This document shows, in pieces, positions 2,459 to 7,474 of a stretch of DNA of 7,633 bases. The stretch comes from Candidatus Hodarchaeota archaeon (GTDB taxonomy: Archaea > Asgardarchaeota > Heimdallarchaeia > Hodarchaeales > YT1-039), in the NCBI GenBank assembly GCA_016840025.1, contig JAEOTF010000440.1, positions 1 through 7,633 on the forward strand, written 5' to 3'. The position numbers and the translations under genes were made by a program. The stretch's first letter is position 1; each line of letters starts with the position of its first letter. The notes beneath the pieces are model-generated. The model had not been told where the DNA came from, did no database searches, and saw only the letters and a program-made list of their open reading frames with translations.

Positions 2459-3799
2459 TTATTTTTTCTCTTCTTTTACATTATTATCCTTTTCTAGACC
2501 TTTCAATTTCCATTTTTTCATTCGTTTTTGGATACTTTGTGATTGAATCTGCAATTTCTTGCTGGCCTTTATTCTCTTTTCTTGATGCTTCCAGATTTCT
2601 CTTTCATGAACTGAAAACCTTCTAAACAAAAAAATGAAGACTATTAACCCAGATATTAAAAATAAAGCGTTAGTTAGAATGGAAATTTGAGTAATATCGC
2701 CCTTCCATTCTGTAAAAAGCCAGAATTGACCTGCAGCATAGGTGGAAGTGAGAGCAAAGCCAAAAAATGCAGCTGAAGTAGGAGGAAGGTCAAATGAACC
2801 CGCTGTGATTTGAACAGATTTTTCACTGAATGCCTTTGCTGCAACAATACTCGTTAAGAACATAATTATGAGATCAAGCCATCTACCCTCTGGAAATGGA
2901 GGTATTTCCTGATAATTAGAAATTAGGGAGAAACCACGATAGAACAAATACGATAGGAATATTCCGTAGAAAAAAAACACACGGAACCACAATTGTTTTG
3001 ATTCTTTAGATTTGCCAAGAATCCATAAATTCCGAATAACAAAGATTATACCACTTAAGAGACCTATGGCAAGAAAAATAATCCATTGTGCTTCGTTCTC
3101 CTCTGAAGCCTTTTCTATCCCCACAAATACTAAAAAACTTATGATGAGAAAAGGCATGAGGCTAAACAGTAGGGAAAGAAGAACCATAAGGAAATTCTGC
3201 TTAGATACATATTTTACTACTTTGCTTGAAATCCCAAGAGTTAATACTGCAAAGAAGTGGGCTTGTAGTAAAGTCCAAAGTAAAAACAGCCCTATCGAGA
3301 AGAACCATAATCCATCAATATCAATTCGCATATAGGCGACTACGGTTGCAACTATGGTTAAACCTACCCCAATTACCGCGCCATTAAACCCAGAAAGATA
3401 ATCTTGGAATAATCTATTTGATAACGCAAGAATTCCAATAATAGTATATCCACAGGTAAATCCAAAAGAAAGAAATAGAATTAGGTCGGGCTTATCCGCA
3501 TATGCTAGAATACCAAATCCTAGGACAATTAATGCAAAAATAGGGAGATGATACCGCATTTCTGATGATAAGATTACTTTAATCCAGTTTTGGGTTTTTA
3601 TTTGAACTCTGTCAGCGCTTTTTTGAGTAATTTCCCTTTTTTGGGATTCTCCTTCCTTAACTCTCCATTTTCCTGCCACAGGTAGCTTTTGAATTGTACT
3701 TGAACCTATTTTTCTACCTTTTTGAACCCCTTTTCGAACTTGTTGGCTGAATGAATTAAGCGGGTTTAAATTTTGTCTTTTTTTAGGGATATCTGGCAT
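2459..3799 (-). CDS. Polytopic membrane protein of unknown family with long basic tails
   Basis: A 446-residue protein of a family I do not recognise. Residues 1-82 are hydrophilic and rich in Lys/Arg/Gln and probably cytoplasmic. About ten hydrophobic segments follow, near 84-100, 105-127, 137-157, 162-188, 203-228, 238-260, 270-292, 307-324, 341-362 and 371-392. A strongly basic helical tail fills 393-446. There is no signal peptide, nucleotide-binding motif or charged residue pattern of a known transporter inside the segments. A conserved-looking stretch is ITAGSFDLPPTSAAFFGFAL (331-350). An even number of segments would place both basic tails in the cytoplasm, consistent with the positive-inside rule. 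The start is ATG 3799 with SD GGAG eight nt upstream. It is the first gene of the operon and divergent from the HTH-GTPase gene. It could be a scaffold, sensor or transporter. Confidence 0.85.
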   Translation of the reverse strand: MPDIPKKRQNLNPLNSFSQQVRKGVQKGRKIGSSTIQKLPVAGKWRVKEGESQKREITQKSADRVQIKTQNWIKVILSSEMRYHLPIFALIVLGFGILAYADKPDLILFLSFGFTCGYTIIGILALSNRLFQDYLSGFNGAVIGVGLTIVATVVAYMRIDIDGLWFFSIGLFLLWTLLQAHFFAVLTLGISSKVVKYVSKQNFLMVLLSLLFSLMPFLIISFLVFVGIEKASEENEAQWIIFLAIGLLSGIIFVIRNLWILGKSKESKQLWFRVFFFYGIFLSYLFYRGFSLISNYQEIPPFPEGRWLDLIIMFLTSIVAAKAFSEKSVQITAGSFDLPPTSAAFFGFALTSTYAAGQFWLFTEWKGDITQISILTNALFLISGLIVFIFLFRRFSVHEREIWKHQEKRIKASKKLQIQSQSIQKRMKKWKLKGLEKDNNVKEEKK

Positions 3800-3884: not shown

Positions 3885-3900
3885 GACTTTTATTTAAGTC
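3885..3900. promoter_or_regulatory. Inverted repeat, candidate operator between divergent promoters
   Basis: GACTTTTATTTAAGTC has 5-bp arms, GACTT and AAGTC, around a 6-bp AT core. It overlaps the minus-strand TATA candidate and touches the BRE of the plus-strand promoter, so a protein bound here could block both directions. A role as binding site for the adjacent TrmB-like regulator is inference. Confidence 0.35.
3888..3897 (-). promoter_or_regulatory. Candidate TATA box of the minus-strand membrane operon
   Basis: The minus strand reads TTAAATAAAA about 90 nt before ATG 3799, implying a leader of some 60-65 nt that includes the GGAG SD. A second AT-rich stretch at 3838-3851 is an alternative, but it would leave the SD very near the transcript end. 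Confidence 0.35.
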
Positions 3901-3921
3901 GAAAGTTTAAATAATATTTAA
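3898..3921 (+). promoter_or_regulatory. BRE/TATA promoter of the HTH-GTPase gene
   Basis: The purine-rich GTCGAAAG (3898-3905) is followed by TTTAAATAATATTTAA (3906-3921). This is the best archaeal BRE/TATA pair in the window. A start site about 25 nt downstream of the box would leave a leader of roughly 30 nt before the start codon at 3970. Confidence 0.5.
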
Positions 3922-3969: not shown

Positions 3970-5664
3970 TTGAAATTAGCGCTTATAGATGAACTAATCG
4001 AGTTTGGCTTATCTTCTTCAGAAGCTCAAATTTTATGGATTCTGCTCCGAAACTCACGCCCAATGAGTGGAAATGAAGTATCCGAGCATACAGACCTCAT
4101 AAGACACTATGTATTTGAATTATTAAAAAGACTCGCCAGAAGAGGATTTGTTGAAGAAATTCCAGAACGTCCTCGACGATATACTACTGCCTTAGATATC
4201 TTAGAACGTCGTATAAGTCTTTTTGAACAAGAATCTGAAAGCATTTGTCAAACACTTGCGGATTCCGAAACCCCGGCAAGAGAGAAAATGACACTGCTTG
4301 GTTTAGACGAAATACAAATTGATCTTTACCTTCTTTTACTAAACGGGCATGAAACACGAAGAGTGTTGAAAGAACATAGTGGTCATTCATATGAGATTAT
4401 TCGTAAGCGAACCGATGAAATGGCAGAAAGTGGGATAGTTAAACGCCGACGAGTTGGCAAGGCCTTACATTATATCCCTAACCCCATTGATTCGGTTATC
4501 GAAACAGAAATTTCATCCCGAAAGACTAAATGGCTTAAACATAAAGAAAGGTTACAAAAAAGCCTTGAAAAGCTGCGTATGTATTTGTGGAGAGGAAAAG
4601 ATCAAGTTGGCCCCGAAGAGATGGATATTGTCCTCCTAAGAGGGCAGAAAATGATTGAAGAAAGGATTAGGGCCCATCTAACGGAGGCAAATCGCGCATT
4701 AACCACTCTCTTTATTCACGTTACTCATAATGTCGAGTTGTTTACAGATCTTGCGAATCGAACTCTTAGAATACTCACAGAAATGGGAAAACGCGGCGCA
4801 GAAGTACGCTGTTTAGTTGAAGACTTCTTTCCTTTCATCCTTTCCTCCCTTGATGAGAAAAATGTAGTCGATTTTCTAACAATTTCACCAAAAGTTCAAA
4901 CTCGCATAGCCCCTTTCCCTTTACCTTGTCTAATCATTATTGACAAATCTCTTGTTTTTGAATTTCCATCTGCTTCCTCATCCCTTGAGAAATGCGTTCT
5001 TTACCGCGGTGAAACCTTAACACAGCTTAAAATCACTGAATTTTTTGAGAGTTGGGAAAGAGCATCGGATATTCGCCCATTTCTTCGAGAAATCTTTAGT
5101 GAGCCAGCATGGAAGAACATAGAAACGAGTATGACGAGAGATCCGACCTACACATTCAAACTAGTCATATGCGGACCTTCTTCAGTCGGTAAGACAACAT
5201 TAATCCGGAGATTTTGCACAAAGAAATTTATTCCTGAATTAAAAGCAACAATGGGACTTGATCTCCAACTTCGATCTTATACATTAGAAATTGATAATAA
5301 AACCTATAATGTCAGACTCCAGCTTTGGGATTTCGGAGGAGAGGAGCGTTTTAGAGTTCTTTTACCCGTGTACAGTCAAGGCAGTCACGCTATCATCTAT
5401 GCTGTCGATTCAACCCATCCCGATGCATTTGACGAACTGAACGAATATGTCAAAATCTTAAAGAATGAAGAAGGGATCAAAGTCCTTATATCAACCAAAC
5501 ACGACCTCATTTCAGAGATTGGACATGATCAAATCAAGGATTTCCAAGAAAAGCACAATATTTCTCAGTATTTTCGAACATCATCAGTAACAGGAGAGGG
5601 CGTGGAAGAACTCTTTTTGAATCTAGCATCCCACCTTATTCGGACTACCCATAATCAGGAATAA
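3970..5664 (+). CDS. TrmB-type tandem-HTH regulator fused to a Rab/Ras-like small GTPase
   Basis: A 564-residue fusion. Residues 4-75 are a TrmB-like winged helix (LIEFGLSSSEAQ, then a recognition region near HYVFELLKRLARRGFVEE). Residues 105-180 are a second one (LLGLDEIQIDLYLLLLNG, ending ALHYIPNPID). A charged helix (180-210) leads to a middle alpha/beta domain (216-365) like the PLD-like sensor part of TrmB regulators, though no HKD motif is visible. Residues 394-556 are a small GTPase: P-loop GPSSVGKTT (402-410), switch I T427, G3 WDFGGEE (D454, G457), G4 TKHD (509-512) and G5 TSSV (537-540). The Ras Gln61 position is Glu458, and G4 has Thr for Asn, as in Rac-type GTPases. It has no membrane segment and no C-terminal prenylation cysteine, so it is probably cytosolic and DNA-bound. 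It likely acts as a transcription regulator switched by GTP/GDP. The divergent promoter region suggests control of itself and the 3799-1207 operon. The GTPase assignment is firm; the regulated targets are inference. Confidence 0.9.
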   Translation: MKLALIDELIEFGLSSSEAQILWILLRNSRPMSGNEVSEHTDLIRHYVFELLKRLARRGFVEEIPERPRRYTTALDILERRISLFEQESESICQTLADSETPAREKMTLLGLDEIQIDLYLLLLNGHETRRVLKEHSGHSYEIIRKRTDEMAESGIVKRRRVGKALHYIPNPIDSVIETEISSRKTKWLKHKERLQKSLEKLRMYLWRGKDQVGPEEMDIVLLRGQKMIEERIRAHLTEANRALTTLFIHVTHNVELFTDLANRTLRILTEMGKRGAEVRCLVEDFFPFILSSLDEKNVVDFLTISPKVQTRIAPFPLPCLIIIDKSLVFEFPSASSSLEKCVLYRGETLTQLKITEFFESWERASDIRPFLREIFSEPAWKNIETSMTRDPTYTFKLVICGPSSVGKTTLIRRFCTKKFIPELKATMGLDLQLRSYTLEIDNKTYNVRLQLWDFGGEERFRVLLPVYSQGSHAIIYAVDSTHPDAFDELNEYVKILKNEEGIKVLISTKHDLISEIGHDQIKDFQEKHNISQYFRTSSVTGEGVEELFLNLASHLIRTTHNQE

Positions 5665-5848: not shown

Positions 5849-5899
5849 GATCAGTCTAATAACAAACAAGGTACCAAAAAATCTTCCTTGCATGTATTC

Positions 5900-5905
5900 A
5901 AGGAG
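5900..5905 (+). promoter_or_regulatory. SD (AAGGAG) that sets the coiled-coil protein start
   Basis: A strong SD 12 nt before ATG 5918. It lies inside the longer reading that would begin at TTG 5888, which has no SD of its own, and so favours ATG 5918 as the true start. Confidence 0.6.
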
Positions 5906-5917
5906 TCTGTATTTACC

Positions 5918-7474
5918 ATGGATCAAATTGTTGTGACACCCTTTCTCCTCTTTGAGCAGGAAGATTCAACGCAACATCGAAATATCCCTGAAATTGAGCT
6001 AACATTAGCCTTCAAGCAGATTTATGCAGAAAAGCCCAAGAGAAAGCAGATAAAAGCTATAAGTAAAATTTTCATTCCTTTCTGGTTAGTACCAATTGAC
6101 GACTCTCAAGGAATAGCACTTGCTGCTTTTGAAGGTTTATCTTCTAAGCTTAATTTGCCGATTTACTCATTTCTCGACCCCAAAAGAGAACTTGAAGCTG
6201 AAGGCTTAAATGAATTTATTCAACGACTCCAATATTTTTCTAGACAAGTTAGCAACAATTCTAGAGGAAAGATGCAGAAAGTAAGAATTGATAATTTACC
6301 ATCCCCTCAGTTCTTGGATGATATTAGAATATTATTCAAGGAAAGACATCCAGGACTAGGTAGAGGGTTAGAAAAAGCAATTTCTCCTGAAATAACTGTA
6401 GAACCGTTGGAAGCTAAAGAAGGAGGTTTAGAATGGTTTCCTTCCAAACATATGCTGCATAGTATTGATAATCAAAAAGTTAAAGTTCAAGAAATTGTCA
6501 ATAAGTGGTTAAAAATCGCTCAATCTCACCAAAAACAACTTGAACAACGATACGAACGAGAGGCTGCCCGAATAGAAGAATTCTATGAAAAGAAAATTGA
6601 AGAAAACGAAAATAGGAAAGAAAAACAAATACAGGAACAGGATGAGCGTTTCAGGCGCGGTATTCCCCAGAGATTCCCAGACCCTCCAAAAGAATTTTCT
6701 TCACAGGTTGAACGCATAAAAAAGATAACCGAAGAAATCATCAACGCAACAATCCAAAAAAACTCGGAACGTGCAGCCATTCGGTGTCAAGAAGCTAGAA
6801 GGGATGTAAAGGATCTAGATGATTTCATAACTTCCTTCACAAACAGACTGACTCTTTATAATCGTGAAAAAGAGGAATTTCAGCGAGATATTCAAAGAGA
6901 AAAAGATCATATTGAAAATGATTTCAAATCCACCAAAAGAAACCTTGAAAAAGAACGTGAAAACGAATTAACGGAAAAAAGAACTGTTTTAGATGAATTA
7001 AAAGTGAATCTCGAGATTCTTGAGGAAATAAAGAACAAACTGTTTGTGGATTATCAAGAATGGAAAACAAATGTGGATGTGAATATTTCTATAGAAAGCT
7101 CAAGGCTGGCTCCAATTCAACATACAGAATATAAGGAAGGGCAATCATCCATCATTTACCTATCGGTTTATGGTGCAGAGTTTGCAAATAAAAAAATAGC
7201 ATTTATTGGTCCATTAATCATGGAAGAAAAAGGCAGACAAAAATTCAAACACCTGAATTCGATAGATGATGTTCTTTCTACTATTCAAAAAAAACTGAGT
7301 AAAAACACACGTAAGCAAATCTCTGAAATATTGGAAGCAAATAATCTACTCCGTGATATTGAAGCTGTTGAAAAACTGAAAAAGGGAGCAAAAACTCTTG
7401 AAAGATCAGAATTTTTTAGCCACAATGAGGCGGTAGAGCTTATCCGAAATTATGATAGACAGTTTCTAACCTAA
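5918..7474 (+). CDS. Long coiled-coil protein of unknown family
   Basis: A 518-residue protein from ATG 5918; the frame stays open to a TTG at 5888, but the SD favours the ATG. I do not recognise the family. It appears tripartite. Residues 1-180 look globular and begin with a hydrophobic strand (IVVTPFLLFE); a Phe/Trp/Pro patch (IFIPFWLVPI, 51-60) leads into a helix. Residues 185-247 and 262-385 are highly charged, Glu/Lys/Arg-rich helices typical of coiled coils, broken at 248-259 by GIPQRFPDPP, which may let them fold back as an antiparallel hairpin. Residues 388-518 form a second small domain with a hydrophobic strand pair (SIIYLSVYGAEF and KKIAFIGPLIM) and a helical end. There is no signal peptide or membrane segment, so it is likely cytosolic. 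No ATPase motif is present, so it is not an SMC protein. It lies downstream of the GTPase regulator in the same direction but has its own putative promoter; a role as GTPase partner is speculation. Confidence 0.85.
   Translation: MDQIVVTPFLLFEQEDSTQHRNIPEIELTLAFKQIYAEKPKRKQIKAISKIFIPFWLVPIDDSQGIALAAFEGLSSKLNLPIYSFLDPKRELEAEGLNEFIQRLQYFSRQVSNNSRGKMQKVRIDNLPSPQFLDDIRILFKERHPGLGRGLEKAISPEITVEPLEAKEGGLEWFPSKHMLHSIDNQKVKVQEIVNKWLKIAQSHQKQLEQRYEREAARIEEFYEKKIEENENRKEKQIQEQDERFRRGIPQRFPDPPKEFSSQVERIKKITEEIINATIQKNSERAAIRCQEARRDVKDLDDFITSFTNRLTLYNREKEEFQRDIQREKDHIENDFKSTKRNLEKERENELTEKRTVLDELKVNLEILEEIKNKLFVDYQEWKTNVDVNISIESSRLAPIQHTEYKEGQSSIIYLSVYGAEFANKKIAFIGPLIMEEKGRQKFKHLNSIDDVLSTIQKKLSKNTRKQISEILEANNLLRDIEAVEKLKKGAKTLERSEFFSHNEAVELIRNYDRQFLT

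Follow-up and report, generated by a model that had tools for sequence, protein, structure and literature searches.

A putative archaeal transcription regulator combining a TrmB-family core with a C-terminal small GTPase

Results

Domain Architecture of the Protein

The gene at positions 3970..5664 on the forward strand of the window, by which we mean the whole stretch of 7,633 nucleotides analysed, encodes a 564-residue protein with a TrmB-family core and a C-terminal small GTPase. The domain order is winged helix 1, divergent winged helix 2, middle domain and small GTPase. Judging from the sequence, we give an even chance to the reading that the protein regulates transcription as a single chain in Asgard archaea of the Hodarchaeota type, and that the nucleotide state of its GTPase would alter DNA binding. 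When the full chain was scanned against Pfam, TrmB (PF01978) scored 60.8 bits against a cut-off of 25.6, its match falling into two stretches when the E limit was 1, and Ras (PF00071) scored 88.8 bits against a cut-off of 21.6, at residues 397–556. The frame holds 564 codons with no internal stop, an outcome with a chance of about 4e-19 under a simple base-composition model. The TTG start codon is uncertain, one orthologue (P0003) starting at residue 5 of the window protein and the other (P0004) about 40 residues upstream of its start.

The Fusion Recurs in Related Genomes

We searched a set of 5.8 billion proteins (a capped list of 7,995 candidates scored) and obtained three proteins, the window protein and two orthologues; a second search, with 2,508 candidates and E values up to 10, again gave these three. 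The third search, of only 269 candidates, gave 26 proteins, of which the 23 beyond the trio list no TrmB domain. Of the orthologues, P0003 has 558 residues and comes from a Candidatus Hodarchaeota metagenome-assembled genome (MAG; 88% identity), and P0004 has 602 residues and comes from a Promethearchaeota MAG (83–84% identity); both taxa belong to Promethearchaeati, and these names support an Asgard origin. TrmB comes first and Ras last in both, making the architecture common to all three full-length proteins found; with the E limit set to 0.01, each orthologue retains a single TrmB stretch.

The sequence-only reading had raised the prospect that a sequencing frameshift joined two genes. We rejected a frameshift chimera because two other MAG proteins have the same architecture: the identical join recurs in them at 83–88% identity, which effectively refutes it. 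The frame itself is free of stops, in contrast to the 36 and 47 stops in the other two forward-strand frames over 3970–5664, and GC content is 38–41% across the three thirds of the gene. A fusion created by frameshift or assembly error can thus be dismissed for practical purposes. Elsewhere, no relative was found in two scans of genome contigs (with six, then two peptide patterns) or in a phage scan, where the few exact stretches used make for weak evidence of absence, nor in viral contigs (two protein scans with two patterns each and one DNA pattern scan), where the evidence is similarly weak. A plasmid scan gave nine records that matched 26–32% of the query, a share corresponding roughly to the GTPase, and none of the nine was annotated as a TrmB regulator.

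Two TrmB-Type Winged Helices, the Second Divergent

Winged helix 1, of TrmB type, covers residues 6–80 (3985..4209, forward strand) and was identified by Pfam, PDB search and alignment. Scanned alone, it matched Pfam TrmB at 48.8 bits, above the cut-off, over residues 11–72. Against PDB sequences, MarR-family chains were matched with E about 0.004 and TrmB (3qph) with E 0.019, and its hhalign score of 51.7 was reached by none of 200 shuffles (maximum 19.8). Winged helix 2, assigned as a divergent TrmB type from a sub-threshold Pfam match, hhalign and an AF2 model, covers residues 104–172 (4279..4485, forward strand). As a separate piece it scored 19.2 bits with Pfam TrmB (E 0.0011), below the cut-off of 25.6; in hhalign it alone scored 34.0 at a probability of 67%, with none of 200 shuffles as high (maximum 27.5), and a PDB sequence search with it gave no meaningful match. 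In the AF2 model the domain forms four helices followed by two strands, and the blocks spanning residues 91–180 are the best part of that model (pLDDT 72–85). The Pfam pieces and hhalign together uphold the two TrmB-like winged helices of the sequence-only reading, the first strong and the second divergent, and its assignment of the N-terminus was borne out by TrmB matches above the cut-off in both the full chain and winged helix 1 alone.

Two AF2 models were obtained, with pLDDT of 43 and 47, and, because both are poor, no domain interface is visible. With the first model, Foldseek found no match with E of 0.001 or below; MarR-type winged helices and Rabs headed the list, with E of 0.002 and up.

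The tyrosine important in DNA binding by TrmB is Y50 (PMC4158304). When the helix end is aligned without gaps and the residue read off, this position holds Phe49 in winged helix 1 and Arg145 in winged helix 2. In the TrmB-family regulator MreA the position is occupied by serine (PMC4158304), and the replacement of the tyrosine is therefore a departure that nevertheless leaves room for DNA binding. By eye, the wings of both winged helices are basic.

A Middle Domain Collinear with TrmB

A long helix follows at residues 173–212 (4486..4605, forward strand), predicted from AF2 secondary structure and collinear with TrmB; the pLDDT of the model falls below 70 after about residue 180 and below 50 after residue 200. 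It lies at the place of the dimerising coiled-coil helix of TrmB and, by analogy, may dimerise. The middle domain at residues 213–366 (4606..5067, forward strand) appears to share ancestry with the N-terminal half of the effector-binding domain of TrmB, as suggested by a sub-threshold PF11495 match and hhalign. In the Pfam scan, the region matched Regulator_TrmB (PF11495) at 16.9 bits and E 0.0038 with a cut-off of 22.2, over profile positions 46–137 of 233, and the match was found in one of the three orthologues only. A PDB sequence search with the middle domain gave nothing meaningful.

We compared the protein with a template profile built from 14 TrmB-family proteins taken from named plasmid records, 13 of them haloarchaeal and one bacterial. 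The hhalign query was the profile of the three orthologues, and the null, which is a lenient one, consisted of 200 column-shuffled queries. Residues 100–392 matched the template with a probability of 95% and a score of 61.9; none of the 200 shuffled queries scored as high (maximum 23.8), and the reversed query scored 19.8. The alignment placed residues 105–353 on template columns 23–243 of 383 in a single collinear run that covers the winged helix, the long helix and the effector domain in TrmB order. The middle domain alone scored 32.8 with a probability of 35%, a score that none of 200 shuffles equalled (maximum 26.8), while the GTPase, used as a negative control, scored 20.0 and was equalled by 3 of 200 shuffles. 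The joint match of winged helix 2 and the middle domain is the strong one, the separate probabilities being modest. The comparison with these 14 proteins adds to the weak Pfam match and backs the sensor-type middle domain that had been proposed from the sequence alone.

The TrmB family is described as combining a DNA-binding domain (PF01978) with an effector domain (PF11495), and in Pyrococcus furiosus TrmB the sugar-binding residues include G320 and E326 (PMC4158304). The C-terminal sugar-binding part of TrmB is not aligned in this protein: since the alignment ends at column 243 of 383 and the GTPase starts about 40 residues beyond that end, the remaining 140 template columns have no room. 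According to the same source, TrmBL2 and TrmBL3 lack the 70 C-terminal residues that hold the sugar-binding domain (PMC4158304). The window protein looks like a TrmBL2-like core preceded by an additional winged helix, with a GTPase at the place of the sugar sensor. The GTPase had earlier been described as appended to the TrmB chain; its C-terminal presence holds, whereas "appended" gives way to a domain occupying the place of the sugar-binding part. We infer the replacement of the sugar sensor from position rather than from a traced event.

A Rab-Like GTPase with an Altered Catalytic Position

The small GTPase domain covers residues 393–556 (5146..5637, forward strand) and was assigned from the Ras match and PDB sequence matches; scanned as a separate piece, it scored 92.6 bits with Ras. 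The best 60 PDB sequence matches listed were all Rab-type, with Rab1A and Rab30 at the top. On the forward strand, the G1 P-loop GPSSVGKTT lies at residues 402–410 (5173..5199); the switch I threonine of G2 is T427 (5248..5250), assigned by alignment to Rab and invariant in the three proteins; G3 is DFGG at residues 454–457, followed by Glu458 (5329..5343, the Glu458 codon being 5341–5343); and G4 is TKHD at residues 509–512 (5494..5505). By the motif definitions of PMC4316618, G1 (GxxxxGK[TS]), the G2 threonine, DxxG and [NT]KxD are all intact, and the sequence-only reading was correct in claiming a full GTPase and in placing the P-loop, DxxG and TKHD.

The catalytic glutamine is replaced by Glu458 in all three proteins, which have WDFGGEERF versus WDTAGQERF in the aligned Rabs. 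The G5 pattern SA[KL] is not matched; the G5-like motif at residues 538–540 (5581..5589, forward strand) is SSV, where Rabs have SAK, the serine being kept. None of the C-terminal prenylation cysteines of the Rab family is present, and we expect no prenyl anchor because the window protein has no cysteine beyond C416. Separately, the hairpin between switch I and II (5260–5328) is four residues longer in the alignment than that of Rab30.

Conservation among the Three Proteins

We counted the positions invariant in the three proteins. All 75 positions of winged helix 1 were invariant, compared with 11 of 23 in the linker after it, 63 of 69 (91%) in winged helix 2, 30 of 40 in the long helix, 123 of 154 in the middle domain and 19 of 26 in the linker before the GTPase. 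Within the GTPase, 79 of the 86 positions (92%) from G1 to G3 were invariant versus 43 of 78 from G4 onwards (Fisher P = 7e-8). Winged helix 1 and the nucleotide switch thus seem the most constrained parts, with winged helix 2 near G1–G3, a pattern that is suggestive only because the three sequences are close and the boundaries were set after the alignment was seen.

Proposed Mechanism and Alternatives

TrmB structures provide a model for how such a protein could act. In TrmB, the helix following the winged helix promotes dimerisation, and two recognition helices enter adjacent major grooves (PMC4158304). By inference from these structures, the long helix would form a dimer that binds paired sites near promoters. 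In their GTP- or GDP-bound form, the switch regions would touch either another part of the chain (the long helix or the middle domain) or an outside partner, candidates for which are a GEF, a GAP or a roadblock/longin protein, and the contact would alter how far apart the winged helices stand and with it the binding of DNA. As glutamate stands in for the catalytic glutamine, control of GTP hydrolysis probably lies in an unusual intrinsic rate or in residues provided in trans; Group 1 Rup GTPases lack the catalytic glutamine as well, and its provision in trans has been suggested for them (PMC4316618). Glu458 in all three proteins, SSV for SAK and Phe49 and Arg145 for tyrosine are points against a simple switch. 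At somewhat below even, we also put the broader idea that an archaeal metabolite-sensing regulator was rewired in Asgard archaea, with a eukaryote-like small GTPase at the sugar sensor's place passing a GEF/GAP signal directly on to gene expression.

The same data fit the main rival reading, in which DNA binding is constitutive and the GTP state recruits partners on the chromosome, so that the output comes from the GTPase. Two winged helices and the high constraint in the switch half of the GTPase are compatible with this tethering, and TrmBL2, a protein without the sugar-binding part, apparently works as a general chromosomal protein (PMC4158304). An effector-type middle domain placed between the DNA-binding and GTPase parts suggests allostery instead, and we consider the tethered arrangement possible, if rather unlikely. 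Winged helices can also be protein-interaction modules, as in ESCRT-II, and the protein could by that account be a GTPase scaffold rather than a DNA-binding regulator. The loss of the TrmB DNA-contact tyrosine from both winged helices speaks for a scaffold; on the other hand, winged helix 1 matches TrmB strongly and is invariant in the three proteins, both wings look basic, and the serine of the MreA regulator at the tyrosine position (PMC4158304) weakens the argument from its loss. We hold the scaffold reading to be decidedly unlikely.

The glutamate at the catalytic position could alternatively mark a GTPase that has stopped cycling: locked to its nucleotide, the domain would play a structural or dimerising role, which the presence of Glu458 in all three proteins would suit. 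However, G1, T427, DxxG and TKxD are intact, 79 of 86 positions are invariant from G1 to G3, and the Q61E change in Ras does not abolish hydrolysis, which leaves a non-cycling GTPase very unlikely in our judgement. Group 1 Rup GTPases, for which in-trans supply has been suggested, are likewise without the glutamine (PMC4316618).

Relation to Known Systems

Our preferred reading of a GTP-controlled DNA-binding regulator has partial parallels among described proteins. Like the window protein, TrmBL2 and TrmBL3 of Thermococcales have a TrmB winged helix and, after it, a domain without the sugar-binding end (PMC4158304), but they are 264 residues long and lack both the additional winged helix at the N-terminus and the C-terminal GTPase seen here. 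The sugar sensors TrmB and TrmBL1 have the winged helix, long helix and N-terminal effector half in the same order; they carry a C-terminal sugar-binding part, which is unaligned in the window protein and has a GTPase in its stead. Among Asgard archaea, MK-D1 has 74 small GTPase sequences, of which 35 are single-domain and 26 have roadblock or longin domains (PMC10933270). The window protein resembles the multidomain Asgard proteins in having a Rab-like GTPase within a larger archaeal chain; their partner domains are described as roadblock, longin or domains of unknown function, in contrast to the TrmB core found here (PMC10933270). The terms "DNA-binding" and "winged" are absent from the main text of that paper; a similar fusion could be hidden in MK-D1, because a figure legend marks domains of unknown function (PMC10933270).

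The nearest published link between a small GTPase and transcription that we found is that of the Group 3 MglA operons, where gene neighbourhood connects a small GTPase with a predicted regulator of transcription (PMC4316618). There the two are separate bacterial proteins, the regulator consisting of a receiver and a winged helix, and G3 is of MglA type, whereas here a single chain carries a DxxG-type G3 (PMC4316618). Group 1 Rup GTPases resemble the present domain in having Ras-like G motifs except the catalytic glutamine; in PMC4316618 they have at most 240 residues and other gene neighbourhoods, unlike the 564-residue fusion. In literature on Asgard GTPases, TrmB and winged helices, no such fusion appears in the titles or abstract openings listed, a coverage that leaves out most subscription papers. 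One paper that mentions Asgard, GTPase domain and TrmB (PMC7439475; CdrS and ftsZ2) was set aside, its title and the start of its abstract concerning another protein. Asgard small GTPases are discussed mainly in connection with membranes (PMC10933270), and the fusion provides, for one of them, an output that can be tested directly; if the proposal is true, small-GTPase signalling would be coupled to transcription in archaeal relatives of eukaryotes.

Upstream Region and Neighbouring Genes

A divergent intergenic region of 170 bases with 29% GC separates the regulator from the open reading frame (ORF) at 2459–3799 on the reverse strand. By pattern match only, it contains, at 3906..3913 on the forward strand and 64 nt before the TTG, a TATA-like box preceded by purine-rich sequence. 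The inverted repeat TTATTTAA-N9-TTAAATAA at 3890–3914 consists of two back-to-back TATA-like boxes and overlaps the box at 3906. As an operator palindrome the repeat was not significant, 148 of 2,000 shuffles having as many such repeats, and for this reason we make no claim of autoregulation through it.

Rfam and tRNA scans of the window were empty. Of the neighbouring ORFs, the five larger ones were compared with protein families, four short ones being excluded; none exceeded a Pfam or NCBIfam cut-off or matched a PHROG at E 0.01. Three of those without a family over the cut-off have recognisable features. The reverse-strand ORF at 2459–3799 has several apparent membrane spans by eye and is possibly co-regulated. 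The downstream ORF at 5888–7474 on the forward strand encodes 528 residues with a long, charged, coiled-coil-like middle, also judged by eye. The ORF at 1789–2442 on the reverse strand contains the cysteine clusters ECSNCC and CHGACSLLNQDGTC, and its product may bind metal.
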